A stretch of 54,987 nucleotides of DNA, taken from contig NZ_CALWXV010000012.1 in NCBI RefSeq assembly GCF_944385615.1, positions 1-54,987 of the forward strand, read 5' to 3'. The position numbers were made by a program, and so were the translations under genes. The stretch's first letter is position 1, and each line of letters begins with the position of its first letter. The stretch is from an uncultured Flavonifractor sp. (lineage in GTDB: Bacteria > Bacillota > Clostridia > Oscillospirales > Oscillospiraceae). This document shows positions 20,050 to 39,073 of the stretch, one piece after another. The notes below the pieces were generated by a model. That model made no database searches. It was not told the origin of the DNA and worked only from the letters and a program-made list of their open reading frames with translations.

Positions 20050-20469
20050 ATGAGACATGAACTGAACCTATGGGTGGCGGGCGGGGATCTGCGGCAGGCC
20101 AAACTGGCGGAGCTGCTGGCCGCCGACGGCCACACGGTACATACCTGGGCCCTGGAGGGCCACGGCCCTCTGGCAGGGGTCCATGCGGAAGAGGACCCGG
20201 CGGGGGCGGAGCTGGCCGACTGTATGATCCTGCCCCTGCCGGCAGAGGAGGAGGGCGGACTGCTCCACGCCCCTCTGTCCGACCGCCCCCGACCGCTGGA
20301 GGAGCTGCTGGCCCCCCTGCGGCCCGGCCAGCTGGTGTGCGCCGGCATGGTGGGCCCGGCCCTGACCGCCCTGGCGGCGGAGCAAGGCCTGGTCCTTCAG
20401 GACTACTTTGCCCGGGAGGAGCTGGCGGTGGCCAATGCGGTGCCCACCGCATTGGCAAATGGACACTAA
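20050..20469 (+). CDS. dpaA: dipicolinate synthase subunit A, N-terminal part (interrupted)
   Basis: First third of the dpaA (spoVFA) gene, whose product with DpaB makes dipicolinate for the spore core in the mother cell. The ATG has GGAGG at 9 nt. The frame reads MRHELNLWVAGGDLRQ, a typical DpaA N-terminus, and continues to YFAREELAVANAVPTA. It then runs into element 1, which adds LANGH and a stop, giving a 139-residue truncated product. The missing continuation EGAIQIALEELPITL is found in frame at 33415. It is followed by element 1, not by dpaB. Confidence 0.9.
   Translation: MRHELNLWVAGGDLRQAKLAELLAADGHTVHTWALEGHGPLAGVHAEEDPAGAELADCMILPLPAEEEGGLLHAPLSDRPRPLEELLAPLRPGQLVCAGMVGPALTALAAEQGLVLQDYFAREELAVANAVPTALANGH
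20431..20456 (+). repeat. left attachment site of element 1 (perfect palindrome)
   Basis: Arms GCCAATGCGGTG and CACCGCATTGGC flank a central CC (20443-20444). The left arm is dpaA coding sequence; the right arm is the start of element 1. The same CC and the following CACCGCA occur at 33406-33414 at the other end. Large serine recombinases cut at a central dinucleotide inside such symmetric sites. Confidence 0.75.
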
Positions 20470-20483
20470 TTGGCCAGATATGG

Positions 20484-20512
20484 AAAAATGGCCGCCCGTC
20501 CGGGCGGCCATT
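20484..20512 (-). terminator. terminator after the GH112 gene
   Basis: A perfect 12-bp stem (20487-20498 with 20501-20512) with a 2-nt loop is followed on the minus strand by TTTTT. It closes the sugar-uptake operon and shields dpaA. Confidence 0.85.
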
Positions 20513-20549
20513 GTTCATGGAATCTCTTGTATTTTGTGTCTGGCAATGC

Positions 20550-22721
20550 TCAGATCTCGTACCAGCGGATCTCGTTGGCATCCAGATCCAGCTGGAAGGA
20601 GCTGCCGTCTCCCCGATATACGGTGGTGGACTGGGGCTCATAGGTGTTGTTGACCACACAGTACTTGCCGTTTTTCACATAGGCGTGGACCTCCACGTTA
20701 TAGTTGGTGGAGAACCAGGTGTGGAGCGCGTCCTCGTCATGGGTGCTCCACAGAATGGCCCGGTAGAGCACACGGCTGTTCTCAAAGCTGTAGGGCAGAC
20801 CGGAGAGGTAGACCGCCCGGCCCTGGCCGAACTGGTTCACCGCCATCTGCACTTCCTTGTCCTTCTGGACCAGGATCTGGGTACCCTCCAGAGCATAGAT
20901 GCTCTTCTTGCCCTCGCCGAAGTCCATCTCACCCTTGCAGTCGGCCAGGATGAAGTGGTCGGGGTGCTGCTCCCAGTTATACTTGTCATAGCCCAGGGTG
21001 AAGCCGGTCTCCTTCTCCACGCCCAGCACCTTGGCCAGCTGGAGATAGCGGCCCTGATACTGGTGGCCGGCGGGCTCGCCCACACCGATGAAGCCGCCGC
21101 CGTTGTAGACAAAGGCCTTGACGGCGGAGGAGATGGCGGGGTCCTCCCACCAGCAGCCGCCGGTATGGGCGGTGTCGCCATCGCCCACGTTGATGAGCAC
21201 ATCCACCCCGTCCAGGCATTTGGGGTCGGCCTTCACATCGTCGAAGCTGATGAACTTCACATCAAAGGGAGCGCCGGACAGGGCCTCGATAACCCCGGCG
21301 TAAGAGTAGTTCTGCTTCTGATAGAGGGCATGGTGGACCATGTGGCAGCCCCAGGAGCGGGCTTTGCCCCAGGCGTTGAGGACAGCCACCGTCTTGACGC
21401 AATAGGGGGTGGTGCCCTTGATATTCTCATACAGCTCCCGGAACTCGTCGCACACGCTCTCCACGTACTGGATGAACTCGGGGAAGTCACAGGCCAGCTT
21501 CAGATAGCCGCCGTAGCCGATGCGGTCGATGGGCTTGCGCAGGATAGCCCGGCGGGCGGTGACCCAGTTCTCCTTAGCCTCCCGGACGGGGTCGCCCCCC
21601 TCGTGGAAGGTGTCGGGGAAGAAGTAGGGCAGGAACCGGCCCTCGGTGTACTTCACGCCGGGGATGTCGGAGATGAGCCGCAGGGTGGAGCCGTTGCCCA
21701 CCGAGCCCACCACCGCGTCCAGGCCGATGGTCTTGAACTCTTCCATGTAAGGCTCGGTGCCGATCCAGTGGTCGCCCAGGAACATCATGGCTTCCTTGCC
21801 CAGCTCATGGGTGATGTCCACCATCTCCTTGGCCAGCTTGGCCACCTCCCGGCGCTGGAAGGCCATGAAGTCCTTAAACTCCTTGGAGGGCACCCGGTAC
21901 TGGTTGTTGTAGTAACCCTGGTCGATGATATACTCAGGGCGGAACTTGTAGCCCACCTCTTTTTCAAACTGCTCCAGGATATAGGGGGACACCGAGGCGG
22001 AGTAGCCGTACCAGTCCACGTACTTCTCCCGCTTGAGCTCGTCGAACACCAGGGTGAACTGGTGGAAGAAGGTGGTGTAGCGGATCACGTTCACATAGGG
22101 GTGCTCGGCGATGAATTTACGCAGCCGCTCCATGGTGAACTTGCGGGTCTTGGGCTGGCGCACGTCAAAGGTGATCTGGTGCTCAAAGTCCTTCCAGTCG
22201 TTGGTGACGGCGTTGTACATATGCACCGGGTCCCAGATGAGATAGGCCAGGAAACTGACGGTGTAGTCGTGGAAGGCCTCCGGGGCGTCCAGCACCACGC
22301 AGCCGCTCTCAGCGTCATAGCGCCACTGATCTGCGGGCACAGGCTGGCCGGTGGTGCGGTCCATCACTTCCCACCAGCGCTTGATATCGTCCCGGGTATT
22401 GACCTCCATCAGCTCGGGGCTGATGCCCTGCATCAGGGGAATGGACAGGGCTCCGCCAGCGGCGGTATAGAAGCCTGTCATGATATAACACTGCTGCACC
22501 TCGTCGGGGTTGGCCTTGGCCCAGGCGTTGTCCTTACGGGTGGTGTAGTAGGTGGAGTATACCTTGGCGTCCACCTTCTTCAGCTCTTCCGGGTAATCGG
22601 TGCCGTCGCAGTCCCGGATGGCGTCCGCGCCCCATTGCTCCAGCAGCTGCAGGGTCTGGGGCACCACATCTACGTCGGTAGGGATGGTGACCCGTCCCCG
22701 GTTGTGCTTGCTCTGGCTCAT
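20550..22721 (-). CDS. 1,3-beta-galactosyl-N-acetylhexosamine phosphorylase (GH112)
   Basis: Cytosolic enzyme that splits galacto-N-biose or lacto-N-biose with phosphate into galactose 1-phosphate and an N-acetylhexosamine, the key step in use of mucin core-1 and milk oligosaccharide units. It has 723 residues, the GH112 length. The N-terminal GRVTIPTDVD, LEQWGADAIRDCDGTDYPEEL and later RPEYIIDQGYYNNQYRVPS are characteristic. The ribosome-binding site is AGGAGG at 8 nt. It is last in the importer operon (binding protein, permeases, small membrane protein, phosphorylase). Preference for GNB over LNB cannot be told from sequence. Confidence 0.95.
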   Translation of the reverse strand: MSQSKHNRGRVTIPTDVDVVPQTLQLLEQWGADAIRDCDGTDYPEELKKVDAKVYSTYYTTRKDNAWAKANPDEVQQCYIMTGFYTAAGGALSIPLMQGISPELMEVNTRDDIKRWWEVMDRTTGQPVPADQWRYDAESGCVVLDAPEAFHDYTVSFLAYLIWDPVHMYNAVTNDWKDFEHQITFDVRQPKTRKFTMERLRKFIAEHPYVNVIRYTTFFHQFTLVFDELKREKYVDWYGYSASVSPYILEQFEKEVGYKFRPEYIIDQGYYNNQYRVPSKEFKDFMAFQRREVAKLAKEMVDITHELGKEAMMFLGDHWIGTEPYMEEFKTIGLDAVVGSVGNGSTLRLISDIPGVKYTEGRFLPYFFPDTFHEGGDPVREAKENWVTARRAILRKPIDRIGYGGYLKLACDFPEFIQYVESVCDEFRELYENIKGTTPYCVKTVAVLNAWGKARSWGCHMVHHALYQKQNYSYAGVIEALSGAPFDVKFISFDDVKADPKCLDGVDVLINVGDGDTAHTGGCWWEDPAISSAVKAFVYNGGGFIGVGEPAGHQYQGRYLQLAKVLGVEKETGFTLGYDKYNWEQHPDHFILADCKGEMDFGEGKKSIYALEGTQILVQKDKEVQMAVNQFGQGRAVYLSGLPYSFENSRVLYRAILWSTHDEDALHTWFSTNYNVEVHAYVKNGKYCVVNNTYEPQSTTVYRGDGSSFQLDLDANEIRWYEI

Positions 22722-22782
22722 AATGCTGCCTCCTAATAAGGGTTATAAATTTTCCGCCCTGAGGCGGCCGGCAGGCTGTGCC

Positions 22783-22980
22783 TTACCGTTTGGGGTCCTG
22801 AAAGGGCTTGTTGTAGATGGCCAGGGCCACAATGAGCAGCGCCAGGCCCACGATCATGATAATCAGACCGTTCATCTGCCCGGTCATTTTCCAGCCGCCG
22901 ATGATCATCGCCATCCCTGCGATAAAGAACAGGGCGATGAGGATCACCCGCAGCGCGGCATGCTCTTTCCAAAATTTCAT
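22783..22980 (-). CDS. small two-segment membrane protein of the GNB operon
   Basis: A 65-residue protein with two hydrophobic segments (about 10-28 and 37-56) and a basic C-terminal end. AAGGTGG precedes the ATG, and it sits 9 nt after the permease stop. Similar small membrane proteins accompany sugar ABC operons in related Firmicutes (possibly the DUF6903 family, from memory). Its job is unknown; position suggests a partner of the importer. Confidence 0.7.
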   Translation of the reverse strand: MKFWKEHAALRVILIALFFIAGMAMIIGGWKMTGQMNGLIIMIVGLALLIVALAIYNKPFQDPKR

Positions 22981-22989
22981 GGTTCCACC

Positions 22990-23877
22990 TTATCCTTTCA
23001 ATCCGCCCACGGTCATGCCCTGGATCAGCTTCTTCTGCACGCAGATGTAGAGGATCAGCGTGGGCAGCATCACCAGCACCAGACCGGCGTACATGGTGCC
23101 GTACTCGGCAGCCGACTGCTGGGCCTGCATCAGGTTCAGCAGGCCTACCGGCAGGGTCTTGCCGCCGGTGGCGGAGTTCATCAGGGTCATGGAGATGATG
23201 TACTCGTTCCAGAAGGAGAGGAAGTTAAAGAGGATGATGGTGATGATGGAGGGCTGGGCCATGGGGAAGATGATTTTGAGCATGGTCTTGCCGTACCCGG
23301 CGCCGTCGATGTAGGCGGCCTCCTCAAAGTCGTGAGGCAGGGTGGCAAAATAGCCCGAGAGAAGGTAGATGGTAAAGGGCAGGGCGGTGGCGGCGTACAC
23401 AATGGCCAGCACCACCAGGTTGTTCAGCAAAAAGCTGAAGCCAAAGGTGTTCTTGAGGAAGGTATCCCCGTCCCGCAGCATCAGGAAGATGGGTACCACA
23501 ATGTAGTTGACGTTGATGAACAGGCCCGCCATAAAGGCCACGTTGAAGAACTTGCGGCCCCGGAAGTGGAACCGGGACAGGCAGTAAGCGGCGGGCAGAG
23601 CCACCACCAGCAGGATAATCAGGGCCAGGGCGGTGACGATCACCGAGTTGAGCATATAGTCGCCCATCTTGGCGGTATTCCAGGCGTTGACAAAGTTCTG
23701 CCAGTAAAAGCCCAGAGGCAGGGCCCAGGGATTTCCGTAGAACTCGCTGTTCTGCTTGATGGAGGCCATGAAGACCCACGCCACCGGCACCACGATGGTG
23801 ACGGCCAGGGTAATGAGGGCCACATAGATAAAGGCCTTATAGACCTTGGTGCTGGTGTGTTTTTCCTTCAGTTCCAT
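22990..23877 (-). CDS. carbohydrate ABC transporter permease (MalG-like)
   Basis: Inner-membrane subunit of 295 residues with six hydrophobic segments. The EAA loop, which docks to the ATPase, reads EEAAYIDGAGYGKTMLKIIFPMAQP. A strong AAGGAGG site precedes it and it is 12 nt from the other permease. No ATPase gene is in the cluster, so a shared MsmK-type ATPase elsewhere is expected, as is common in Firmicutes. Confidence 0.93.
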   Translation of the reverse strand: MELKEKHTSTKVYKAFIYVALITLAVTIVVPVAWVFMASIKQNSEFYGNPWALPLGFYWQNFVNAWNTAKMGDYMLNSVIVTALALIILLVVALPAAYCLSRFHFRGRKFFNVAFMAGLFINVNYIVVPIFLMLRDGDTFLKNTFGFSFLLNNLVVLAIVYAATALPFTIYLLSGYFATLPHDFEEAAYIDGAGYGKTMLKIIFPMAQPSIITIILFNFLSFWNEYIISMTLMNSATGGKTLPVGLLNLMQAQQSAAEYGTMYAGLVLVMLPTLILYICVQKKLIQGMTVGGLKG

Positions 23878-23889
23878 ACCGTCACCTCC

Positions 23890-24774
23890 TTAGAATTCCA
23901 GCGGCTCCCGCTTGGTGGCCTTGTTGACCATTGCGGAGAGCAGGAAGGAGAACAGGAATACCACCACGCCGATGGCCATGGAGTAGCCGTACAGGCCAGC
24001 GTCCTTCTGCCCGTACATATAGGACAGGGCCACCTCGGAGGCGCCGTTGGGGCCGCCGGAGGTCATGGCCTTGACAAACAGGAAGGCCATGTTGATGGTG
24101 GAAATGATGAAGAAGGTCAGGGTGGTGCGGATGTTGGTCCAGATCAGGGGAATGGTGATCTGGAAGAACTGGGTGATCCGCCCGGCGCCGTCCAGGCTGG
24201 CCGACTCATAGAGGCTCTCGGGCACGCTGGCCATGGAGGCCATATACATGACCATGTAGTAGCCGATGGCCTGCCAGATCATGGCGATGATGATACTCAC
24301 CACCACCAAAGGGGCGTCCTTCCACAGCACGGTGACCGTCTCCCCCCGGAAGAGGGAGATAATGCTGTTGAGCATACCGTTCTCCGGCTTATAGATGGCG
24401 GAGAAGATACCGGAGATAACCACCACAGACAGAATGTTGGGGATGTAGAAGATGATGCGGAAAAGGTTGGTGCCCTTGATCTTCTCATGGGTCAGGATGC
24501 TGGCGAAGATCAGCGCCAGAGCGAAGGTGATGATGGTAACGACGACCACCATCAAAATGGTGTTCTGCATGGAGCGGATAAACAGACTGTCCTGCGCAAG
24601 GGCCTGGAAATTGCCCATGCCCACGAAGGTCTCCGTGGGGGAATAGGCGCCCCGCTCGTACAGGGACATGCGGAATACGTTGAGGGTGGGCAGGATCATG
24701 AAGATAAAGAATAAAATGACGGCGGGTGCCACGCACAGCACGATAAAGCGGCTGCGCCCCTTATTTCTTCTCAC
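23890..24774 (-). CDS. carbohydrate ABC transporter permease (MalF/UgpA-like)
   Basis: Inner-membrane subunit of 294 residues with six hydrophobic segments and the EAA loop ESASLDGAGRITQFFQITIPLI. It starts at GTG 24774, with AGGAG 8 nt upstream. Together with the downstream permease it forms the channel for the sugar delivered by the lipoprotein at 24909-26288. A terminator-like hairpin lies between it and that lipoprotein gene. Confidence 0.92.
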   Translation of the reverse strand: MRRNKGRSRFIVLCVAPAVILFFIFMILPTLNVFRMSLYERGAYSPTETFVGMGNFQALAQDSLFIRSMQNTILMVVVVTIITFALALIFASILTHEKIKGTNLFRIIFYIPNILSVVVISGIFSAIYKPENGMLNSIISLFRGETVTVLWKDAPLVVVSIIIAMIWQAIGYYMVMYMASMASVPESLYESASLDGAGRITQFFQITIPLIWTNIRTTLTFFIISTINMAFLFVKAMTSGGPNGASEVALSYMYGQKDAGLYGYSMAIGVVVFLFSFLLSAMVNKATKREPLEF

Positions 24775-24835
24775 ACGCTCAGCTCCTTTCTGGGCTACGG
24801 CTTGTTCTGTTCACAAATTGTTCACATTTACTTCT

Positions 24836-24878
24836 AAAAACGGGGGGCGGTGAGCGGGCTACCGCTCGCCGTCCCCCG
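24836..24878 (-). terminator. partial terminator between binding-protein and permease genes
   Basis: On the minus strand a 17-bp stem (24862-24878 with 24841-24857, two G-U pairs, 4-nt loop) is followed by TTTTTAG. In sugar ABC operons such a site lets more binding protein than permease be made. Confidence 0.75.
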
Positions 24879-24908
24879 TCATGACGATCTGCTTGTTTTC
24901 GCTAAAGA

Positions 24909-26288
24909 TCAGCTCAGGTTAGCGCGCATCTGATCGCTGGCGGTCTTGATGCTGCTCACCCACTCATCCTTGGTCATGGTACCGGAAACCAGGGCGTTCA
25001 CGGGATCGAAGAACACTTCGCGGGTAGTGCCCAGACCGGCCACGGACTTGTAAGAGGCAAAGGAGCCCAGAGCGGCCATGGCGCCGTCGTCATAGATGCC
25101 ATAGAAGATCTGGTTGTCGCCGGAGAGCTTATCCACGATACCGGTGACAGGCTGGGCAGCGCCGGCGGCGGCAAACAGGTCTGCCGCGGTGTCGCTGTAC
25201 ATGAAGGCGATGAACTGCTTGGCGGCGTCCACATTGGCAGCGCCGGCGGGGATCCACATCTGCTCAAAGAAGGTGTAGCTGTAGCGGTCGCCGCCCTCGG
25301 TGACGGCGGGCAGGGCGGTCATGCCCCACTCAAAGCCATCGGCCCGGGGAGCCTCGGCCATCTCACCCACGATCCAAGTGCCGTTGGGCATGAACAGGGC
25401 CTTGTTGTCCAGCACCAGCTGCTGGTTCTGGGTGAAGTCCTGATCGTTGGCCTGAGCGGGGGTGATGGGGTTGGTGTAGCTGGCCAGCTTCTCCACGATG
25501 TCGAAGCAGGTCTGAGCGGCCTGGGAGTCCCAGATGCCCTCGGCATAGTGGGTAGCGTCGAAGAAGAAGTCCTCGCCGCCGACCTCATACATCAGAGCAT
25601 AGAAGAAAGCGTCAAAGTAACCGGTGGTGGGGTAAGTAAACAGGGAGATGCCCTCAGCGGCGGCCTTGTCGCCCAGCTCCCACATCTCGTCCCAGGTAGT
25701 GGGCACTTCCCAGCCCTTCTCCTCAAACAGGCCCTTGTTGTAGAACAGGCCGCAGGGAGAGTAGAACATGGGGGCCAGATAGGTCTTGCCGTCGGCATAG
25801 GGGTTGGTGGTGGAGTTGTCGTTGACGAAGCCGGGGATGATCTTCTCGCCCACGGTCACGTCCTCGCCGGGCACGTTCATGGACAGCACATCGGTGATCT
25901 CAGCAATGTTCTTGTCCTTGATGAACTGCTCGGTCAGGCCGGCCTCACGGCCCACGGCCAGGTGGATCACGTCGGGATACTCACCGCCCTGCATGGCAGG
26001 CCCGATGACGTCCTCCAGCTTCTTGTCGGTGACCAGCTCCACATTGATGCCGGTCTGCTCGGTAAAGGCGTCGGCCACCTGCTGCCACACCTCGGTACCG
26101 TAGCTGGTCTCGATGGCGGCTACCTTGATGGTGGTGCCGGACGTGTCGCTGCCGCCGCTGCTGGTGTTGCCAGCCGGGGTACTGGTGTTGCCGCCGCCGG
26201 TGGTGTCGTTGCCGCCGCCACAGCCGGCCAGAAGACCCAGAGACATGGTGGCTGCAAGAGCCAGACTGAGAACTTTCTTTCCATTCAT
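24909..26288 (-). CDS. ABC transporter sugar-binding lipoprotein
   Basis: Extracellular solute-binding protein of 459 residues, family 1. The signal peptide (about 1-22) ends in the lipobox LLAGC with Cys23 for lipid attachment, followed by a Gly/Thr/Ser-rich linker to about residue 50. The mature domain begins TIKVAAIETSYGTEVWQQVADAFTEQTGINVE, normal for this class. It is first in the operon with GGAGG upstream. Its ligand is inferred to be GNB or LNB from the phosphorylase in the same operon. Confidence 0.93.
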   Translation of the reverse strand: MNGKKVLSLALAATMSLGLLAGCGGGNDTTGGGNTSTPAGNTSSGGSDTSGTTIKVAAIETSYGTEVWQQVADAFTEQTGINVELVTDKKLEDVIGPAMQGGEYPDVIHLAVGREAGLTEQFIKDKNIAEITDVLSMNVPGEDVTVGEKIIPGFVNDNSTTNPYADGKTYLAPMFYSPCGLFYNKGLFEEKGWEVPTTWDEMWELGDKAAAEGISLFTYPTTGYFDAFFYALMYEVGGEDFFFDATHYAEGIWDSQAAQTCFDIVEKLASYTNPITPAQANDQDFTQNQQLVLDNKALFMPNGTWIVGEMAEAPRADGFEWGMTALPAVTEGGDRYSYTFFEQMWIPAGAANVDAAKQFIAFMYSDTAADLFAAAGAAQPVTGIVDKLSGDNQIFYGIYDDGAMAALGSFASYKSVAGLGTTREVFFDPVNALVSGTMTKDEWVSSIKTASDQMRANLS

Positions 26289-26373
26289 AGTTGGTTGTAC
26301 CTCCTTCAGTTAAATCCAACACGCAATTCGGAAGGCCTAAAACCTGCCAGTTTTGGCTTCCATTCTGATAAAA

Positions 26374-26401
26374 AGTATATTGATTTCCAGCCAGATAACA
26401 A
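26374..26401 (-). promoter_or_regulatory. promoter of the GNB/LNB uptake operon
   Basis: TTGTTA (26396-26401) and TATACT (26374-26379) on the minus strand are 16 nt apart. It lies in the AT-rich 355-bp divergent region (26289-26643) shared with the AraC gene. No further feature is clear there. Confidence 0.55.
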
Positions 26402-26571
26402 GGCGTTTCTTGCGCTACTTTTTAGCTATATTGCTTTTCTCGTTTTTTTGTTGTGAAGTTGCTAATTTTTGCACGTTTAATTTGTGCATCTTGTTATGGA
26501 TCTGAAACCATCCCCGTTGGGTGGCGCTTTTTTGCAGTCACACCCATGAAAAGTCTCCTGATCCTTCCAAG

Positions 26572-26600
26572 TTGCGCAAACGGCGGGAATCGATTATAAT
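26572..26600 (+). promoter_or_regulatory. promoter of the first AraC regulator gene
   Basis: TTGCGC (26572-26577), 17 nt, then TATAAT (26595-26600). The start codon is about 40 nt downstream. The poor -35 fits an activated promoter. Confidence 0.6.
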
Positions 26601-26643
26601 CATTCCTATAAAAGGGGCCGACCCGGGCGAAAGGGGGATTTTT

Positions 26644-27486: not shown

Positions 27487-27520
27487 GTTCGCCGCACCCA
27501 GCCGCAGAAAGGAGGCCGCC

Positions 27521-28432: not shown

Positions 28433-28480
28433 AATTATCTATTCCCTTTCTTGAACAAACCGACTACAATAGAGCTATCC

Positions 28481-28499
28481 GCGGGAGCCGGTCTCCCGC
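28481..28499 (+). promoter_or_regulatory. hairpin in the galE leader
   Basis: GCGGGAG (28481-28487) pairs with CTCCCGC (28493-28499). It lies 50 nt before galE, downstream of TACAAT (28465-28470), a possible -10 box that lacks a good -35. No U-run follows, so it is not a terminator. Confidence 0.35.
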
Positions 28500-30516: not shown

Positions 30517-30519
30517 GGC

Positions 30520-31635: not shown

Positions 31636-31649
31636 CCTTCCCATATAGT

Positions 31650-31695
31650 AAAGAGCCCGTCGTGGATACATCCAATTCCGCGACGGGCTCTTTTT
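31650..31695 (+). terminator. bidirectional terminator between nahK and recombinase 1
   Basis: AAAGAGCCCGTCG (31650-31662) pairs with CGACGGGCTCTTT (31681-31693), 18-nt loop, with T5 on the plus strand. The A-rich left side offers some termination on the minus strand too, where recombinase 1 ends. Confidence 0.85.
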
Positions 31696-31702
31696 ATGCC
31701 TC

Positions 31703-33307
31703 TTATCTGGTTTCCCCCAAAGGGACCGGCCTCCATTCCGTGATCTCCACCTGACAGCGCCTTCCGTCTCTTTTTGTCTCGGCACATACACGAAATCCCA
31801 CCGGCAGCCCGGCAACCTCCACCAGAAAGCCATCCTGAAAAACGGTAATACGCTCCATCAGTTCCTCCAGAAGGAGCTCTCCGCTCTCCAGCTCCCGCTC
31901 CAGAAAGGACTGGAGCTCCTGGAGGCGTTCCGCCTCCCGCCGGATATTTTCTTTTCCCTGTTCCATCTGCGCCCGCAGCCCGGCAATCTCCTCCTCACAG
32001 CGGGAAACGACGCGGGACAACTCCGCCCGGCTCAGCGCCCCGTCCAGATAGGCTTCCAGGGCCCGATCCTTCCGGTCCAGCTGCCGCCGGAGGGCCTGCC
32101 GCAGCCGTGCGCCTGTCCCTGCTTGATCTGCTCCCCCGCTCTCCATCGTTCTCAGCTCCTGAAACACCTGCCTGATAATCGCCGGGCCGTCCAGCCCCAG
32201 CTGATCCAGAACGTGACGGGCCACCGCGGAAAGCACCTTTCCCGGAACAGCCCCCATGGCACAAGCTCCGTCCAGATGCCCCCGGCAGACAAAGCGGGTA
32301 TACTGGGTGCCGTCAGACCGGCGGGTCCGTTTGCAGGTAAATGTCTTGCCACAGGACCCACAGCGAACCTTGCCGGAATACCAGTATCGGGCGGAAAACC
32401 GTTCCTGCCCGGCAAACAGCTTGGCCCGCCGGTCCAGCTCGGCCTGAACAGCCTGAAACTCCGCCCGGCTGACGATGGCCTCATGGTGATCCCGCAGGCA
32501 GATTTGTTCCTCCGTCCCGTCGTTGACGATCTTGCGGTGGGTCAAATGGTCGGTGGTGCGGTATTTTTTCTGGAGCAGATCCCCGCAGTATTTCTCATTG
32601 CGCAGGATACGCAGCACCATAGCAGAGGACCATGGGCCGTCAGGCCGCAGGGGCGGGGGGATATGAGCCTGGGTCAGCTCCTTGGCAATGGTGTGGGCCC
32701 CTTTGCGCGCTGTCAGAAACGTGTGGTAAATCCGCCTCACGATAGCGGCCTGTTCCCTCTCCACCGTGAGCTGTCCCCCTTGCAGGGTGTAGCCGTAGAT
32801 GGAATTGTTGCCAAAGACCACCCCCCGGCGCATGGCCTGGAGCTGGCCCCATCGGGTGCGCTCTGAAATTTTGCGGCTTTCCTCCTGGGCCACGCTGGCC
32901 ATGATGGTGAGGCGAAACTCCCCGTCATTGTCCCTGGTGTCGATGTTGTCGTTGAGAAAGCACACCCCCACGCCTCTGGCCTTCAGCTGCCGGGTGATTT
33001 GAAGGGTATCCACGGTGTTTCGGGCAAATCTGGACACCTCCTTGGTGAGGATCAGGTCGATTTCCCCCTCCATGGCCTGCCGGACCATCCGGGTAAACTG
33101 GGGCCGCCGTTTGGCGGAGGTTCCGGACAGGCCCTCGTCGGCAAATACTCCCACCAGAACCCAGCCTGGGCGGGTCTGTATGTAGCTTTGGAAAAAAGCC
33201 TGCTGGGCGGCCAGAGAAGTGCGTTGATCCTCCTTGTCGGTGGACACCCGGCAGTAGGCCGCCACCCGCAGGCGGTCCCCACCCTTTTCAAAGCCTTTCT
33301 CCTCCAC
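31703..33307 (-). CDS. large serine recombinase of element 1
   Basis: 534 residues from GTG 33307, with AAAGGAG about 10 nt upstream. The resolvase domain (about 12-150) has catalytic Ser22 in YCRVSTD and the block DLILTKEVSRFARNTVDTLQ; a recombinase domain follows (YGYTLQGG... LRNEKYCGDLLQKKY), then a zinc ribbon (CGSCGKTFTC ... C) and a charged coiled coil near 410-490. This is the SpoIVCA/phage-integrase type. It lies at the right end of element 1, pointing inward, 98 nt from the junction, so it is the likely excisionase for this element. Confidence 0.92.
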   Translation of the reverse strand: MEEKGFEKGGDRLRVAAYCRVSTDKEDQRTSLAAQQAFFQSYIQTRPGWVLVGVFADEGLSGTSAKRRPQFTRMVRQAMEGEIDLILTKEVSRFARNTVDTLQITRQLKARGVGVCFLNDNIDTRDNDGEFRLTIMASVAQEESRKISERTRWGQLQAMRRGVVFGNNSIYGYTLQGGQLTVEREQAAIVRRIYHTFLTARKGAHTIAKELTQAHIPPPLRPDGPWSSAMVLRILRNEKYCGDLLQKKYRTTDHLTHRKIVNDGTEEQICLRDHHEAIVSRAEFQAVQAELDRRAKLFAGQERFSARYWYSGKVRCGSCGKTFTCKRTRRSDGTQYTRFVCRGHLDGACAMGAVPGKVLSAVARHVLDQLGLDGPAIIRQVFQELRTMESGGADQAGTGARLRQALRRQLDRKDRALEAYLDGALSRAELSRVVSRCEEEIAGLRAQMEQGKENIRREAERLQELQSFLERELESGELLLEELMERITVFQDGFLVEVAGLPVGFRVCAETKRDGRRCQVEITEWRPVPLGETR

Positions 33308-33325
33308 GCCGGACCCGCTCCTTTC

Positions 33326-33343
33326 AGAGGGCGGCCGCCCTCT
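33326..33343. repeat. 18-bp perfect palindrome upstream of recombinase 1
   Basis: AGAGGGCGG followed by CCGCCCTCT, just before the recombinase 1 ribosome-binding site. It could be an operator or an extra recombinase-binding site; the AGGGCGG arm is not part of the crossover site. Confidence 0.45.
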
Positions 33344-33388
33344 CAACAGGATATGCGCCGCCACGCCCCGGCTTGCCTGCTGCGTGTC

Positions 33389-33422
33389 CTTTCGCCAACG
33401 CTCTCCCCACCGCAGAGGGGGC
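33389..33422 (+). repeat. right attachment site of element 1
   Basis: Element arm 33389-33405 then CC (33406-33407) and CACCGCA shared with the left site, then dpaA codons. Joining the element arms gives a rejoined circle site in which GCCAA (33394-33398) and TTGGC (20452-20456) lie exactly symmetric about CC, 7 nt on either side. Confidence 0.75.
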
Positions 33423-33747
33423 CATCCAGATCGCCCTGGAGGAGCTGCCCATCACTCTCCACGCCGCCCGGGTTCTGGTCATCGGCTTTGGCCGGGTGGG
33501 CAAGGCCCTGGCCCAGCGGCTGGATGGTCTGGGCGCCAAGGTGAGCGTGGCCGCCCGAAAGTGGTCCGACCTGGCCTGGGCGGAGAGCTGCGGGTACTGC
33601 GGGGAGCAGACCGAACACCTGGCGGGCTGGCTGTGCGGCTACGACCTGGTGGTCAACACGGTCCCCGCCCCGGTGCTGGGCCTCACCGAGCTGTCCGACC
33701 TGAAGCCGGGATGTCTGGTCATCGACCTGGCCTCCAAGCCAGGGGGG
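33406..33747 (+). CDS. dpaA: dipicolinate synthase subunit A, middle part (interrupted)
   Basis: About 113 codons of dpaA isolated between the two elements. It reads PTAEGAIQIALEELPITL, then the nucleotide-binding motif VLVIGFGRVGKALAQ and VVNTVPAPVLGL, ending IDLASKPGG. It is in frame with the left part across element 1 and with the right part across element 2. On its own it has no start codon of its own class, so it makes sense only after excision. Confidence 0.9.
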
Positions 33748-33763
33748 GCTGGTGTGGGAAAGC
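33739..33763 (+). repeat. left attachment site of element 2
   Basis: dpaA codons for Ala-Ser-Lys-Pro-Gly, then the core GGGG (33745-33748), then the element arm GGCTGGTGTGGGAAAGC (33747-33763). This arm pairs with 38916-38932 at 15 of 17 positions around a central GG. Confidence 0.75.
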
Positions 33764-34360
33764 TCAGGGCAATCTCTCCCGCAAATACCGCACCATCTCC
33801 GCCGGATGGGGGCAGGTCATCAGCCCGCTCATAAGACAGGCCCCCGCCGCCCCGGTTTGGGCCACCGCCGCCAGGTTGTCCGGCCCGATGCCTCCGATGG
33901 CGTATACTGGAATGGTAACAGCGGCACAGACCGACGCCAAAAAGGCCAGCCCCCGGCCGGGCAGGCCTTTTTTACAGTCGGTATCAAAGACGTGCCCGGC
34001 GGTGGCATAGTCGGCCCCCAGGGCCTGGGCCCGCACCGCCTCCGCCGGAGCGTGGACCGACACCCCCAGCAGCTCCACCTGGTCCCGGAGCTGGGGACAG
34101 GCCTCCAGTTCCCCCAGGGAGATGTGGAGCCGGGGCACCCCCAGCCGAGTGCACACACCGGGAAAGTGGTGGAGCACCACAGCTTCTCCCCCGGCCTCCA
34201 CCACCTGCCGGGCCAGAACTTCATATTCCTCCTCGGTCAGATCCTTTTCCCGCAGAATCACCCGGTCGATGCCGCCCCGGCACAGCTCACCCACCCGCTG
34301 GGGCAGGTCACCGGCACACAGGCCCCGGTGAGTGACACAGCAGAGCTTAAACATAGACAT
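33764..34360 (-). CDS. thiE: thiamine-phosphate synthase / TenI-like protein
   Basis: 198-residue barrel protein. The phosphate-binding AIGGIGPDNL and the ADYATAGHVFDTDCKKGLPGRG stretch fit the ThiE/TenI group common in clostridial thi operons. ThiE joins the thiazole and pyrimidine moieties; TenI-like members instead aromatise the thiazole. The VHLGQxD motif of classical ThiE is replaced, so TenI is possible. Its stop directly abuts the element 2 arm. It overlaps the thiH stop by 14 nt. Confidence 0.8.
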   Translation of the reverse strand: MSMFKLCCVTHRGLCAGDLPQRVGELCRGGIDRVILREKDLTEEEYEVLARQVVEAGGEAVVLHHFPGVCTRLGVPRLHISLGELEACPQLRDQVELLGVSVHAPAEAVRAQALGADYATAGHVFDTDCKKGLPGRGLAFLASVCAAVTIPVYAIGGIGPDNLAAVAQTGAAGACLMSGLMTCPHPAEMVRYLRERLP

Positions 34361-35534
34361 AGTCGTTCATTACCGGCTGGAGCCCCTGCTCCCGGATAGC
34401 GGCCACCACCTGGTCCACGGTGCGGCCGTCGGCGATCTCGAACTGGTCGTCTCCTTCTTCCTCGCCGCTGTGGCCGCCGATGCCGGTGGACACCCCGGCG
34501 GAGATCTTGGTGGCGGCGATGTCGATGACCCGGTCCCGGAACCCCGCCCGCTCTCGGGTGGAGATGGTCATGCCGGCAAAGGGCATGAACAGCCGGTAGG
34601 CGCACATGACCTGGAGCAGCTGCCGCTCATGGACGTCCTTGGGATTGATCTTGTCGTTGTTGACGATGGGCCGCAGCCGGGGGCAGGAGAAGGAAATTTC
34701 GGCGTGGGGGTACTTGCGCTGCAGGAGCCAGGCGTGCATCCCAGTGGCAAAGGCATCCTTGCGGAAGTCGTCCAGCCCCAGCAGGGCGGCAAAGGCCACC
34801 CCCCGCATCCCGCCCATGAGGGCCCGCTCCTGGGCCTCCAGCCGGTAGGGGAAGATGCGCTTATGGCCCGCCAGATGGAGCTGCTCATACCGCACATCAT
34901 CATAAGTCTCCTGAAATACGGTCACATAGTCCACCCCGCACTGGTGGAGGTAGGCGTACTCGTCGGAGTTCATGGGGTAGACCTCGATGCCCACCATCTT
35001 GAAATACTTCCGGGCGATCTTGCAGGCCTCACCGATATATTGTACATCGCTCATTTTTCGGCTCTCGCCGGTAAGAATCAGGATTTCCTCCAGGCCGGTC
35101 TGGGCAATGGCGGCCATCTCCTCCTCGATGCCCGCCAGGTCCAGTTTAGCCCGGCGGATCTTATTGTGGCAGTTGAAGCCGCAGTAGATGCAATAATTTT
35201 CGCAGTAGTTAGAGATGTAGATGGGGGTGAAAAGGTACACATTATCCCCAAAATACCGCCGCTTCTCCATCCGGGCCTTCTGGGCCATCTCCTCCAAAAA
35301 AGGCAGGGCCGCCGGGGAGAGCAGGGCGGCAAAGTGTTCCGGGGTGCGCACGTCGGCGTCCAGGGCCGCCCGCACATCCTGAGCGGTGTAGGCATTCTCG
35401 TCATAGCCCGCTCGGGCGGCGGTGACCTGCTGCCGCACGGTAGGGTCGATCTGCTCCATCCCGGGGAGGTAGGCCATGTGGTCGATCTTATCCTTGACCT
35501 CCACCACGGTGATGCCTTCCATAGGCTGATCCAT
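34347..35534 (-). CDS. thiH: 2-iminoacetate synthase
   Basis: Radical SAM enzyme splitting tyrosine to dehydroglycine for thiazole synthesis under anaerobic conditions. It has 395 residues. The cluster motif CENYCIYC (CxxxCxxC) near residue 100 ligates the 4Fe-4S cluster. The start ATG is preceded by GGAGGAG. It follows thiG by 15 nt. Confidence 0.95.
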   Translation of the reverse strand: MDQPMEGITVVEVKDKIDHMAYLPGMEQIDPTVRQQVTAARAGYDENAYTAQDVRAALDADVRTPEHFAALLSPAALPFLEEMAQKARMEKRRYFGDNVYLFTPIYISNYCENYCIYCGFNCHNKIRRAKLDLAGIEEEMAAIAQTGLEEILILTGESRKMSDVQYIGEACKIARKYFKMVGIEVYPMNSDEYAYLHQCGVDYVTVFQETYDDVRYEQLHLAGHKRIFPYRLEAQERALMGGMRGVAFAALLGLDDFRKDAFATGMHAWLLQRKYPHAEISFSCPRLRPIVNNDKINPKDVHERQLLQVMCAYRLFMPFAGMTISTRERAGFRDRVIDIAATKISAGVSTGIGGHSGEEEGDDQFEIADGRTVDQVVAAIREQGLQPVMNDYVYV

Positions 35535-35549
35535 GTCTGTCTCCTCCTC

Positions 35550-36314
35550 TCAGTCCGCCAGAAATCCGGTGAGGGGGGAGGATGGAGCCGCACCCCGGTC
35601 CAGCACCCGGCCCAGGCCCGCCAGATAGGCCGCCCGGCCCGCCTCAATGGCGGACTTGAAGGCCCCAGCCATGGCGGAAATATCCCCGGCAGTGGCGATG
35701 GCGGTGTTGGCCATCACCGCCGCAGCCCCCATCTCCATGGCCTCACAGGCCTGGGAGGGACGGCCGATCCCCGCGTCCACAATGACCGGCAGGTCGATCT
35801 CGTCAATGAGAATCTGGATAAACTCTCTGGTGGCCAGGCCCTTGTTGGAGCCAATAGGGGCCCCCAGAGGCATAACGCAGGCTGCTCCGGCATCCACCAG
35901 ATCCCGGGCCACGTTCAGGTCGGGATACATGTAGGGCATGACCACAAAGCCCTCCTTGGCCAGAATCTCGGTGGCCTTGACCGTCTCGTAGTTGTCGGGC
36001 AGCAGGTACTTGCTGTCCCGCATGATCTCGATCTTTACAAAGTCCCCGCAGCCGCAGGCCCGGGCCAGCCGGGCAATGCGCACGGCCTCGTCGGCGGTAC
36101 GGGCGCCGGAGGTGTTGGGCAGCAGGGTCACCCCCTCCGGGATGTGGTCCAGGATGCTGTCGGTGTCTGAGTTGGCCCGGCGGAGGGCCAGGGTGATGAT
36201 CTGAGCCCCGGCATGCTCCACCGCCGCCCGGATGAGATCCATGGAATACTTGCCCGAGCCCAGAATAAAACGGGAGGTAAAGGCGTGTCCCCCCAAAATC
36301 AGTTCGTCTGCCAT
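35550..36314 (-). CDS. thiG: thiazole synthase
   Basis: Forms the thiazole phosphate from DXP, dehydroglycine and ThiS thiocarboxylate. It has 254 residues from ATG 36314, with AAAGGAAG 8 nt upstream. The key Lys lies in FVKIEIM, and [22 protein letters not shown] is the phosphate-binding end. It follows thiF by 58 nt. Confidence 0.95.
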
Positions 36315-36372
36315 GTTTGTTCTTCCTTTCTGTGGACCGGCCAGTGTCCGGTTCCTATTTTTATGGGATACC

Positions 36373-37002
36373 CTATGGTTCGCTCTTTCCCAACAGCAGC
36401 CGCATGACCATGGTGGCCTGGTGGGAGGCGCACACCGCCACCCGGGGGGCCATAAGCCCCTGGCCCAGAGCGATATCACTCTCCCCGTCGCCGCAGAGAT
36501 AGAGCCGCCCCATGGCCTTTTGGGTGCGGATGGCGTTGGCCGAGCCTGTCCCACCCATTCCGGAGCCCGCCACCACGGTAGTGTCCGGCAGCCCCGCCAG
36601 CAGGGTGCTCACCAGCATGGCCTTTTCTTCAGCCTTGTCAAAGGCCTCGCACACCACCTGACACCCCCGGAACAGGGTACAGGCGTTGTCCGCACTTACC
36701 TTACAGGTGTGGACTTCATAGTCCAGCCAGGGGTTGATCTGCCGCAGCTGCTGGACCAAGGCTTCGGTCTTGTACTGCCCCAGGTGGGGGAGAAAGTAGT
36801 GCTGCCGGTGAAGATTGGTCACATCCACCCGGTCAAAATCGGCCAGCACCAGCCGTCCCACCCCCAGCCGGGCCAGCAGCACAGCGATGTGGGAGCCCAA
36901 TCCTCCCAAGCCGGCCACTCCCACCGAGGCGGCGGCAAATTTTTTCTGATTTTCCGCTCCGTGACGGGCGATAAGGGCCTGTTCCAGCGTTTCCCGGTCC
37001 AT
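36373..37002 (-). CDS. thiF: sulfur carrier protein adenylyltransferase
   Basis: E1-like enzyme of 209 residues that adenylates the ThiS C-terminus. The ATP loop [10 protein letters not shown] and [15 protein letters not shown] (with metal Asp and Arg) are present. This is the short clostridial form; the zinc CxxC pairs of E. coli ThiF are absent. The start ATG 37002 overlaps the thiS stop by 4-6 nt. Confidence 0.92.
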
Positions 37003-37006
37003 GGCC

Positions 37007-37204
37007 TTATCCGCCTCCCACAAACCGGACCACCTCCAGTTTGTCCCCATCGGACAGCCGGATTGTGGAAAAGTCCTCCCGGCGCAGAATGGTCCCGTTG
37101 AGTTCCACCGCCACTTGGTCGGCCTTCCAGCCTTTTTGGTCCAGCAGGTCCCGCACGGTATTCAGCCCCGTCCTATTCAGGGGTTCTCCATTGACTTGCA
37201 GCAT
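37007..37204 (-). CDS. thiS: sulfur carrier protein ThiS
   Basis: 65-residue beta-grasp protein, starting MLQVNGEPLN and ending VGGG; the C-terminal Gly-Gly carries the thiocarboxylate sulfur. AAAAGGAGG lies 7 nt before the ATG. First gene of the operon. Confidence 0.95.
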   Translation of the reverse strand: MLQVNGEPLNRTGLNTVRDLLDQKGWKADQVAVELNGTILRREDFSTIRLSDGDKLEVVRFVGGG

Positions 37205-37228
37205 CGTCTGCCTCCTTTTCTCCAGCAA

Positions 37229-37286
37229 AAAAAGGCGCCACGAAGAACTACACCCGCGGTGGTGTACCCCTTCGTGACGCCTTTTT
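37229..37286 (-). terminator. terminator-like hairpin in the thi leader
   Basis: On the minus strand a 17-bp outer stem with one G-U (37270-37286 with 37229-37245) encloses a TACACC/GGTGTA stem and ends in seven T. It lies between the thi promoter and thiS. There is no TPP riboswitch core in the short leader, so how read-through is achieved is open. Confidence 0.7.
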
Positions 37287-37304
37287 GGCTTCACTCTGCG
37301 CAAT

Positions 37305-37333
37305 ACAATAGCACCCCTCCCCCGCCTTGTCAA
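37305..37333 (-). promoter_or_regulatory. thi operon promoter
   Basis: Perfect TTGACA (37328-37333), 17 nt, then TATTGT (37305-37310) on the minus strand. Confidence 0.75.
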
Positions 37334-37384
37334 GGCATATTTTCCACACCCAGCCGTAAATTGGGTGGAGAAAGGAGGGCGTCT

Positions 37385-37507
37385 ATGGAAGAACAACAGG
37401 AGATTATCTGCCGTTTCCCGGCGGAAGGGCCGTCGCTGGAGGAACTGCTGGCCCGTCTGCTGGCCGGGCCCCGGGGAGAGGAGCCGCCATGGGCGGGCCG
37501 CGGGTAG
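37385..37507 (+). CDS. 40-residue protein before recombinase 2
   Basis: A short frame with a very strong ribosome-binding site, AAAGGAGGG 6 nt before the ATG, ending inside the recombinase 2 start (18-nt overlap), so the two are coupled. It is acidic in the first half (MEEQQEIICRF, then a LEELLARLL helix) and ends in a basic Arg-Gly. I do not recognise the family. A small partner or directionality factor of the recombinase is possible but only inferred from position. Confidence 0.6.
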   Translation: MEEQQEIICRFPAEGPSLEELLARLLAGPRGEEPPWAGRG

Positions 37508-38946
37508 GGCTCTACCTCCGCCTGTCCCGGGAGGACGAGGGGGCGGGGGAGTCCATGAGCATTGAGAACCAGCGGGCCTATCTGCTGGACTACGCTGCCG
37601 GGCGGGGCTGGCCGGTGGCAAAAATCTATGCCGACGACGGCTATACCGGCACCAACTTCCGCCGCCCCGGCTTTCAGGCCCTGCTGAGCGACATTGAGGG
37701 GGGATGCATTGACCTGGTGCTCACCAAGGACCTGTCCCGGCTGGGCCGGGACCAGGCGGGAACGGTGTATTATTACCAGTGCTATTTCCCCGCCCACGGG
37801 GTGCGCTACATTGCCGCCGCCGAGGGCTTTGACACCGCCGCCGGGCAGAGCGCCATCGCCCTCCCCTTCCTGGCGGCGGCCAACGACTTTTACACCGCCG
37901 ATATCTCCCGCAAGGTGCGCGCCGCCCTGGACACCCGGCGGAAGCAGGGGCTGTTCATCGGGGCCTCCCCCCCGCTGGGCTACCGAAAGGACCCGGACCA
38001 CAAGGGGCACCTTCTCCCCGATCCGGCCACCGCCTGGGCAGCTCAGGCGGTGTTTTCCACCTATCTGTCCCTGGCCTCGGTACGGGGGACTGCCCGGGCC
38101 CTGACGAAAGCAGGAGTACCCACCCCCGCCCAGTGCAAGGGGGGACCGGCGGGAGCGTGGAGCGACACCATGGTGCGCCGGGTTCTTACCAACCCCACCT
38201 ATGCCGGACATTTGACCCAGAACCGCTCGGAAAAGGCAGGCTACAAGGTGGACCGCCGCCGGTACCACCCCCCGGACCAGTGGACGGTGGTGCCCCATAC
38301 CCATCCCCCTTTGGTATCCCAGGCCGACTTTGACCGGGTCCAGGCCCTGCTGGCGGTACGGAGCTACACCCCCAAGGCCGGTCCGCCCCATTTACTCACC
38401 GGGCTAGCGTTCTGCGGAGCCTGCGGCTCTGCCATGGCCTATGTAAAGGAGGGAAACCGGCTCTATCTAGTGTGCCGCCGCTCTCGCAAAACCGGAGCCT
38501 GCTCCTCCCGCCGGATCTCAGAGGCCAGCATATTGGCCGCCCTGAAGGGGGAACTGGAGCGACTGACCGCCGGAATAGAGCCTTCTCTTCTGCTCCCGCC
38601 CCCCTCCCGGGAATCTGACAAGGCCCGCCGGGCTTTGGAGGGGGAGCTGCGGCTGCTGCGGCAGGCGGGGGCGGCCCTGTACCGGGACCGGGCCGCCGGG
38701 GCGCTGGACCAGGAGGAGTTTTCCGCTTTGCTGGAAGAAAACTGCCGGGCGGCCCGGCTGGTGGAGGTACGTCTGGCCGCGCTGTCTCCACCGGAGTCTC
38801 CCCCCGCCGTCCTGCCCGATCTGCTGGCCCGGCCCGCCCTGCTCACCCTGGTGGAGCGTGTCGAACTGGGAGAGGGCGGTACACTCACCATCTCCTTCCG
38901 CTTCCGGGACCCCCACCTTTGCCACACCAGCCGGGGTGGACTTTGA
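37489..38946 (+). CDS. large serine recombinase of element 2
   Basis: 485 residues from ATG 37489 with GAGGAG upstream. The resolvase domain (about 4-155) has catalytic Ser13 in YLRLSRED and LVLTKDLSRLGRD; a recombinase domain follows (GYRKDPDHKGHLLPD ... RRVLTNPTYAGHLTQ), then a zinc-type CGACGSAM ... C and a helical charged region. The last residues, Gly-Gly-Leu and stop, lie in dpaA beyond the crossover point: after excision the frame would instead run 87 codons antisense into thiE. It lies at the right end of element 2, pointing outward. Likely excisionase for element 2. Confidence 0.92.
   Translation: MGGPRVGLYLRLSREDEGAGESMSIENQRAYLLDYAAGRGWPVAKIYADDGYTGTNFRRPGFQALLSDIEGGCIDLVLTKDLSRLGRDQAGTVYYYQCYFPAHGVRYIAAAEGFDTAAGQSAIALPFLAAANDFYTADISRKVRAALDTRRKQGLFIGASPPLGYRKDPDHKGHLLPDPATAWAAQAVFSTYLSLASVRGTARALTKAGVPTPAQCKGGPAGAWSDTMVRRVLTNPTYAGHLTQNRSEKAGYKVDRRRYHPPDQWTVVPHTHPPLVSQADFDRVQALLAVRSYTPKAGPPHLLTGLAFCGACGSAMAYVKEGNRLYLVCRRSRKTGACSSRRISEASILAALKGELERLTAGIEPSLLLPPPSRESDKARRALEGELRLLRQAGAALYRDRAAGALDQEEFSALLEENCRAARLVEVRLAALSPPESPPAVLPDLLARPALLTLVERVELGEGGTLTISFRFRDPHLCHTSRGGL
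38916..38940 (+). repeat. right attachment site of element 2
   Basis: Element arm CCTTTGCCACACCAGCC (38916-38932), then the GGGG core (38933-38936) and dpaA codons for Val-Asp-Phe-Glu. It pairs with the left site as described there. Confidence 0.75.
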
Positions 38947-39073
38947 GGCGGCCGCCCGGCTGGGGGTCAAGGCCATCTGGGCCCTGTCCCTGCCGGGGAA
39001 GGTGGCGCCGGTGACGGCGGGCCGGTGCATCCAGACCACCATCTACAACATTCTGCGGGAAATGGGAGTGTGA
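38933..39073 (+). CDS. dpaA: dipicolinate synthase subunit A, C-terminal part (interrupted)
   Basis: Last 46 codons of dpaA: GVDFEAAARLGVKAIWALSL, then PGKVAPVTAGRCIQTTIYN to the stop at 39071. It is in frame with the middle part across element 2. The three parts add to 290 residues, against about 297 for Bacillus DpaA. Two bases separate its stop from dpaB. Confidence 0.9.
   Translation, partial: GVDFEAAARLGVKAIWALSLPGKVAPVTAGRCIQTTIYNILREMGV

Follow-up and report, generated by a model that had tools for sequence, protein, structure and literature searches.

Division of dpaA into three in-frame pieces

How can a bacterium make dipicolinate synthase subunit A when the codons of its gene lie in three separate places? 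This question is raised by dpaA (spoVFA) of an uncultured Flavonifractor sp., found in positions 1–54,987 of contig NZ_CALWXV010000012.1 (assembly GCF_944385615.1; hereafter genome G000, contig C12). This whole stretch of 54,987 nucleotides, called the window below, has a GC content of 60.5%. By direct reading and translation, its DpaA is coded by three in-frame pieces on the forward strand, separated by gaps of 13.0 kb and 5.2 kb. We consider it likely that two independent sporulation gene-intervening elements, similar to skin and gin, interrupt the gene and that their excision in the mother cell restores dpaA.

Piece 1 (20050–20442, +) codes for residues 1–131 and ends in ELAVANAV, and piece 2 (33406–33747, +) codes for 114 residues running from PTAEGAI to DLASKPGG. 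Piece 3 (38936–39073, +) contributes 45 residues from VDFEAA to REMGV (codons 38936–39070), followed by the stop codon TGA (39071–39073). Joined by a script, the pieces yielded a protein of 290 residues with 92% identity over 290 residues to the uninterrupted DpaA of G015, a member of the same genus; the latter was assigned to dipicolinate synthase subunit A with a score over the NF006162 cut-off and under the TIGR02853 cut-off. Twelve relatives of the genus have the three pieces side by side, without gain or loss of a base at either join. The intact dpaB gene (39076–39660, +), which scored over the cut-offs of the two dipicolinate synthase B families NF006161 and TIGR02852, starts two bases past the stop codon of piece 3. 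Reading, translation, and scripted joining thus confirmed the original prediction, which was made from the sequence alone, that dpaA codons in three parts join into 290 residues; dpaB was likewise found intact and placed as predicted. The predicted coordinates were right to a few bases (20444, 33746, and 38933 compared to 20442, 33747, and 38936), and the differences fall in cores shared by the element ends. A second intact dpaA, which had been named as a refuting outcome, was looked for and not found: only these three pieces match DpaA in the 87 contigs of the genome, which is 89.6% complete.

Attachment sites of the two elements

Element 1 (20445–33407, about 13.0 kb) occupies site 1 in the NAV-PT-EGA codons, and element 2 (33748–38935, about 5.2 kb) occupies site 2 in the PGG-VDF codons. 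At site 1, the core CCCACCGC is common to attL1 (20443–20450, +) and attR1 (33406–33413, +), and the crossover falls within the NAV-PT codons. The attB sequence, GCGGTG-CC-CACCGC, is itself an inverted repeat. The arms of the reconstructed site-1 attP form a dyad about the central CC, with a mean of 17.4 of 24 matching positions compared to 6.3 in shuffled sequences. In 18 of the 19 scored elements, the dyad reached the 99th percentile of shuffles (G085 was below), a percentile that is optimistic because the centre was picked after viewing the sequences: the first scoring, centred on the 8-bp core, gave zero signal (0/19), and the midpoint of the attB inverted repeat was then taken as the centre.

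At site 2, the attL2 core is a run of G in the PGG codons (33742–33748, +), the attR2 core is GGGG (38933–38936, +), and the crossover falls within this G run. The arms in the window are CTTTGCCACACCAGC and GCTGGTGTGGGAAAG. Over the site-2 elements, cognate arms scored a mean of 16.3 of 24, compared to 10.2 after shuffling and 12.2 in non-cognate pairings, the latter exceeding the shuffles because arms resemble one another across elements. Nine of 13 elements reached the 99th percentile, with G084, G130, G190, and G300 below it. Both elements of the window passed the dyad-symmetry test.

Site-linked recombinases and their conservation

Each gap was predicted to contain an intact large serine recombinase gene, and this was borne out: recombinase 1 (31703–33307, −; 534 residues from a GTG start) and recombinase 2 (37489–38946, +; 485 residues) are both open and contain the Pfam domains Resolvase, Recombinase, and zinc ribbon. 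The stop codon of recombinase 2 lies inside dpaA piece 3. In the related split genes described below, each split site 1 with a recombinase in the fetched stretch carried the recombinase 1 type, and each such site 2 carried the recombinase 2 type; for G070 and the right part of G387, the fetched stretch ended before any recombinase.

Linkage between recombinase type and insertion site was also observed when 400 genomes of the family were searched, with the three best candidates scored per genome. Recombinase 1 had a match at E 1e-100 or better in 58 of the 400 genomes; the best 15 were all in dpaA site 1, and dpaA and non-dpaA loci were intermixed below them. Recombinase 2 had a match at E 1e-90 or better in 16 genomes, 13 of which were in dpaA site 2; the matches in the remaining genomes (G021, G138, and G149), with 43–44% identity, lie elsewhere, and dpaA pieces were absent from the fetched loci. 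In the order (394 genomes, family included), a recombinase 2-like match at E 1e-60 or better was present in 89 genomes, and one of the 27 newly fetched best loci, that of G707 from another family, has adjoining dpaA pieces 1 and 2. In a tree of 62 rows, built by a quick method and having long branches, the site-1 rows (n = 22) required 2 label changes compared to 18.2 after shuffling, and the site-2 rows (n = 13) required 2 compared to 11.9. The outliers were G172/G085 and G140 for site 1 and G300 for site 2, and a single clade was shown for neither site. A search of viral contigs yielded 31 loci for recombinase 1, the best with 40% identity near full length or 52% over a partial match, and one locus with 31% identity for recombinase 2.

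Open frames of at least 467 residues (stop to stop) were found in 34 of the 35 dpaA recombinase rows, the remaining one (G140) being cut by a contig end, and the Y-x-R-x-S motif was present in 34/35, missing in the site-1 row of G088. Between the window genome and Flavonifractor sp. An82, dN/dS was 0.23 for recombinase 2, 0.18, 0.18, and 0.07 for the three dpaA pieces, 0.11 for dpaB, and 0.03–0.25 for the thi genes carried by element 2; dS was 0.48 for recombinase 2 and 0.42 for dpaB. The simplest reading of these values is that element 2 has probably been kept, in working state, since the window species and An82 parted. Relatives with decayed recombinases had been named as another refuting outcome; the recombinases were instead found open, with constraint in the one close pair tested. 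Two site-1 elements contain additional recombinase genes: four in a row in G088 (G088:C1:150000–165500) and two on opposite strands in G085.

Occurrence among relatives

Twenty Flavonifractor genomes, one per species, were searched with the intact DpaA of G015. The gene was intact in 12, supplying the uninterrupted relatives with which comparison had been proposed, and split at one or both of the exact sites in seven; that of G018 was not judged because the sequence there reads N. Site 1 was split in G001, G004, G006, G013, and G017, site 2 in G002, and both in G000. G002 and G004 are Flavonifractor sp. An82 and Flavonifractor sp. An112, respectively, whose records carry no metagenome-assembly mark. 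Element 2 recurs in An82 with the same genes, and An112 has an occupied site 1. In P. phocaeensis An507, dpaA is uninterrupted.

In the sample of 400 family genomes, DpaA matches were found in 326 and none in 74. More than one match was present in 40 genomes, five of which had already been covered in the genus search; 33 were searched again (plus G018 and G006), and G282 and G384, with weak DpaA matches, were left out of this repeat. Among the 33, 18 genes were rejoined, three more look split (G088 at both sites with part of piece 2 missing, G140 and G070 at site 1), and 12 were intact, weak, or without a clear call (the last including G144 and G261). With seven genus members added, five of them from the sample and two not (G001 and G006), 25 split genes were rejoined by script. 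All 25 gave a single open frame of 281–293 residues with 43–97% identity to the intact gene; in a few, the ends used differ from those of the local alignment by a whole number of codons. Both sites were split in six genomes (G000, G130, G172, G190, G200, and G253) from four genera, including G200, which consists of one contig of 3.67 Mb. The family split counts are lower bounds because genomes with one partial match were not followed. In G075, two near-full-length DpaA matches were observed (C61:1926–2741 and C4:6959–7777), representing a duplicate gene or a mixed bin.

Control signals and a candidate directionality factor

The word CATANNNT, which we take to be the −10 type of sigma E and sigma K, the sigma factors of the mother cell, was looked for in the 300 bases preceding 31 recombinase genes taken from the 35 rows. 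It was present for 18 of them, compared to a mean of 4.1 and a maximum of 11 in 200 shuffles. After removal of near-duplicates, it was found in 16 of 28, compared to 4.0 with a maximum of 11 in 100 shuffles. Upstream of cargo genes, its frequency (24/187) was close to the 25.7 expected by chance. Among 18 other words tried, only AATANNNT exceeded its shuffles (11 compared to 4.5, highest 8). In the window, sites resembling the mother-cell −10 type are CATATCCT (33348–33355, −) upstream of recombinase 1 and CATATTTT (37336–37343, +) upstream of a small open reading frame (ORF) and recombinase 2. Upstream of dpaA itself, a conserved promoter-like stretch, CACC...AATAGGAT (19990–20018, +), is presumably sigma-K-like judging from the sigma-K consensus; the pattern [TG]CACC...[CA]ATA[GA]GAT was observed at this position in 11 of 11 genus members compared by eye.

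The small ORF, coding for 40 residues (37385–37507, +), overlaps the start of recombinase 2 and is a candidate recombination directionality factor. It is the first candidate for element 2 because of its similarity to skr of the Bacillus subtilis skin element in overlap and to GirX of gin in size. By a mechanical rule with chance control absent, a small ORF precedes the recombinase in 12 of 13 site-2 and 11 of 18 site-1 loci. Seven or eight of the site-2 ORFs share GPxLEELL-like residues by eye, and no Pfam family was matched over its cut-off by seven small ORFs upstream of recombinases.

Cargo of the elements

Element 1 carries, by Pfam, genes for a lacto-N-biose/galacto-N-biose phosphorylase (20550–22721, −; PF09508, PF17385, and PF17386, with TIGR02336), a sugar ABC transporter (22990–26288, −; permeases at 22990–23877 and 23890–24774, binding protein at 24909–26288), two AraC-family regulators (26644–27486 and 27521–28432, +), a GalE-like epimerase (28552–29571, +), a nucleotidyltransferase (29614–30516, +), and an APH-fold kinase, probably an N-acetylhexosamine kinase (30520–31635, +). 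The operon suggests the substrates of the epimerase and the kinase, and the cargo as a whole would constitute a pathway for the use of host glycans. Element 2 carries a thiazole synthesis operon (33764–37204, −), in which thiH (34347–35522), thiF (36373–37002), and thiS (37007–37204) scored over NCBIfam cut-offs. A thiE/tenI-like gene (33764–34354) matched the NCBIfam thiE/tenI families below their cut-offs, and the gene at 35550–36314 (−), without an NCBIfam call, is one that we take to be thiG from its operon position. Metabolic cargo in both elements, as originally predicted, is therefore supported by Pfam and NCBIfam. No phage families were found by these databases in 14 of the 15 cargo ORFs of both elements (a 65-residue ORF at 22783–22980 was left out). 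No TPP riboswitch preceding the thi genes was detected in the window with Rfam at the gathering threshold; the sole Rfam match in the window was an S10-Clostridia ribosomal protein leader (RF03136) at 8541–8618 (−).

Among the 20 genus genomes, the lacto-N-biose phosphorylase was found only in G014 besides the window genome. The block in G014 matches window positions 20549–31629 at 87.8%, and the 20 kb inspected there contain no dpaA piece or recombinase match. The thi operon has a different setting in relatives. In G015 and G006, where site 2 is empty, it lies a few kb downstream of dpaB, between dpaB and an isocitrate dehydrogenase gene, and in G011 it is likewise downstream of dpaB, where the contig ends. 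The isocitrate dehydrogenase gene follows dpaB within about 50 bases in the window genome and about 260 bases in An82. The position of the thi operon beside dpaB in relatives suggests that a resident neighbour operon and element 2 came together, in either direction. In some species, the interval between dpaB and the isocitrate dehydrogenase gene also contains what we take to be beta-hexosaminidase-like and vWA/lectin-like genes alongside the thi operon; in other species it is empty (loci compared: L135, L036, and L134).

The elements that could be spanned range from 2.7 to 65.6 kb. Further cargo includes genes for arabinose use, carbamoyl-phosphate synthase with dihydrodipicolinate synthase (Pfam), and, in G115 and G013, operons that we take from their translations to be for CoA-dependent degradation. 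In G190 (G190:C1:16100–36000), the site-1 element contains uvrC, mutS2-like, and DUF711 genes, and the site-2 element of the same dpaA contains genes for a DAP/Orn decarboxylase and a DAP epimerase. Among the genus mates of G190, uvrC of G115 lies 1.2 Mb from dpaA, dpaA is intact in G356 and G288, and the link between uvrC and dpaA is unreadable in G387, whose element was not spanned. No second copy of ThiH was found in the window genome at E 1e-60, nor of UvrC in G190 at E 1e-30. With these single-copy genes inside elements, growing cells would pay a high price for excision, in keeping with its confinement to the mother cell. Pfam named no phage families in 73 cargo proteins sampled from 320 called ORFs; the ORF caller was trained on the codon use of the window and fails on AT-rich elements (none were called in G085). 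Elements in dpaA that are unrelated to one another repeatedly contain genes for surface proteins with S-layer homology, most of them very large (Pfam; L083, L064, L053, L074, and L047).

sigK in the genus

A search with the sigK family was made over the 20 genus genomes, and fetched stretches were inspected. Among the matches listed, sigK-like genes were broken after residues 67–71 in G000, G002, G015, G011, G014, and G012 and near residues 111–116 in G004, G014, and G008, and the match ended near residues 208–215 in six genomes (G002, G005, G006, G011, G013, and G016). In G014, sigK is in three pieces on three contigs. Recombinase-like genes were found near the breaks at residue 67 or 111–116 in G002, G015, G011, G014, G004, and G008. 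The end of sigK in G002 was not found within 80 kb. In the window genome, only the first 67 residues of a sigK-like gene were found, at about 16240–16440 of contig C44.

Proposed mechanism and alternative explanations

dpaA is a gene of the mother cell. Each element would be a chromosome segment with attL and attR at its ends, the sites of the large serine recombinase that it encodes. During sporulation, recombinase 1 would excise element 1 from the mother-cell chromosome by crossover at the central CC in the NAV-PT codons, and recombinase 2 would do so for element 2 within the PGG codons, probably with the aid of the 40-residue protein. The two excisions would leave a continuous dpaA of 290 codons upstream of dpaB, whereby dipicolinate could be made, and dipicolinate synthesis in this organism would then need two programmed excisions. 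The forespore would retain both elements, and the cargo for lacto-N-biose use and thiazole synthesis would be inherited. Of the readings considered, the one with the best support is that of the original prediction, in which one sporulation gene contains two distinct site-specific elements. The present analysis adds the recurrence of such elements across the family with other cargo and the finding that some of this cargo consists of resident single-copy host genes.

Several observations weigh against this mechanism. Upstream of the recombinases, no −35 sequence was recognised, and a search before CATANNNT for AC and ATA at a fixed distance showed no enrichment. Element 1 has no convincing directionality factor, the call of the mechanical rule there being unconvincing, and the rule that found the 40-residue ORF had no chance control. 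Recombinases of both types occur outside dpaA too. In G017, the halves of dpaA are ordered so that excision of a small element cannot mend the gene. An EtfA-based route to dipicolinate exists in some clostridia, and dpaA might therefore be dispensable. Finally, sigK of the window genome appears to end after residue 67, with no second part among the matches listed, and a complete sporulation programme is therefore not demonstrated in this genome. As for the order in G017 (G017:C10:132357–132776 and 393805–394293), the arc to be excised would be the rest of the chromosome and not the intervening 261 kb, reflecting either a rearrangement or a misassembly.

The apparently truncated sigK would suit a parasitic explanation, according to which mobile elements have inserted at conserved codons of dpaA in strains that have ceased to sporulate or to need DpaA, with excision being rare and unrelated to development. 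Integrases often target conserved genes, and the 74 family genomes without a DpaA match point in the same direction. However, all pieces remained open in the 25 genes tested, dN/dS was low in the close pair, element 2 is shared with An82 at a divergence similar to that of dpaB with neither gene nor recombinase decayed, and the recombinase rows have nearly all kept their frames and catalytic motif (34/35 each); we therefore regard this explanation as unlikely. Alternatively, the elements might leave and re-enter at a low rate in growing cells, giving a population mixed in its ability to form spores. Serine integrases do work in both directions given a directionality factor, and yin of C. botulinum was reportedly excised at all time points (PMC10747680). 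Such switching is nevertheless quite improbable here: the only thiH found in the window genome and the only uvrC found in G190 lie inside elements, where loss would be costly, and the −10 sites enriched upstream of the recombinases are of the mother-cell type.

Two further explanations would dispense with excision altogether. As a single contig in a draft assembly of 87, the window invites suspicion of an artefact, but An82, An112, and the single-contig G200 are split at the same sites; an assembly artefact was rejected on these grounds and is hardly conceivable. Instead, each piece might be translated on its own, with the products combining into a split enzyme, and piece 1 does sit inside an open frame of 177 residues. 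Plausible start sites were not seen for pieces 2 and 3, however, and piece 3, with only 45 residues, overlaps the stop codon of recombinase 2 in a different frame, so that we give a split enzyme practically no credence.

Excision in the mother cell thus being the preferred explanation, the chances seem evenly balanced for a broader proposal. In this family, dpaA, with two ports, and sigK, with two or three, would serve as docking points for elements that have largely ceased to be mobile DNA. Ordinary resident genes, some of them single-copy (thiazole synthesis, uvrC/mutS2, and perhaps lysA/dapF), would have become germline-only and be discarded by the mother cell, with at least three excisions per spore, making this a bacterial counterpart of programmed DNA elimination. 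If the mechanism is true, programmed gene reconstitution is not limited to scattered single cases in Bacillus and Clostridium but is a system that recurs within a large family of gut bacteria; two integrase types are tied to two codon motifs of one gene; and housekeeping genes sit in DNA lost by the mother cell. About thirty matched recombinase/att pairs are supplied by the analysis. The results also suggest that surveys of gene content may count dpaA or sigK as missing from such genomes and hence class them as non-sporulating.

Comparison with known systems

The interrupted sporulation genes named in the reports cited here are sigK (skin), spsM (SPbeta), spoVFB (vfbin), spoVR (vrin), gerE (gin), yabG (yin), and kamA (phi3T) (PMC4191935, PMC10747680, PMC6957869, PMC5595907, and PMC5025042). 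The vfbin element of Bacillus weihenstephanensis, like the elements described here, splits a dipicolinate synthase gene of a spore former, namely, spoVFB (dpaB) (PMC4191935, PMC10747680, PMC6957869, and PMC5595907), and its recombinase is reported to be sporulation-specific (PMC5595907). That case concerns the other subunit, a single element, and phage-related genes (PMC4191935), whereas dpaA has two elements in which no phage genes were recognised. The gin element in gerE of Bacillus cereus ATCC10987 is likewise a non-phage element with a serine recombinase (GirC), and has a 42-residue factor, GirX, a 9-bp core, and sporulation-timed excision (PMC5595907). On the other hand, gin is 28.6 kb long, contains mostly unknown genes and three recombinases, and interrupts gerE (PMC5595907), whereas the elements in dpaA contain known metabolic operons.

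In B. subtilis and C. difficile, excision of skin by a large serine recombinase restores the mother-cell gene sigK (PMC6957869 and PMC5025042). In B. subtilis, the directionality factor skr (64 residues) overlaps the start of spoIVCA by 101 nt (PMC6957869), which resembles the position of the 40-residue ORF on recombinase 2. The skin elements differ in being prophage-like, in interrupting sigK, and in occurring as one element per gene per species, the two species using different sites in sigK (PMC6957869 and PMC5025042). SPbeta in spsM (PMC4191935), yin in yabG (PMC10747680), vrin in spoVR (PMC4191935), and phi3T in kamA (PMC6957869) also use sporulation-expressed genes as attachment sites, as far as these sources describe them; unlike the dpaA elements, they are prophages or prophage-like and single insertions. 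In the portions available of the open literature, with subscription journals and preprints outside the scope, neither an interrupted dpaA/spoVFA nor two elements in one sporulation gene is reported. One source only mentions spoVFA in gene surveys (PMC11536998), and another is irrelevant, its dpAA being a dinucleotide (PMC11706625). What is new in the present system, compared to those described in these sources, is the presence of two ports in one gene, their reuse throughout a family, and single-copy host genes as cargo.

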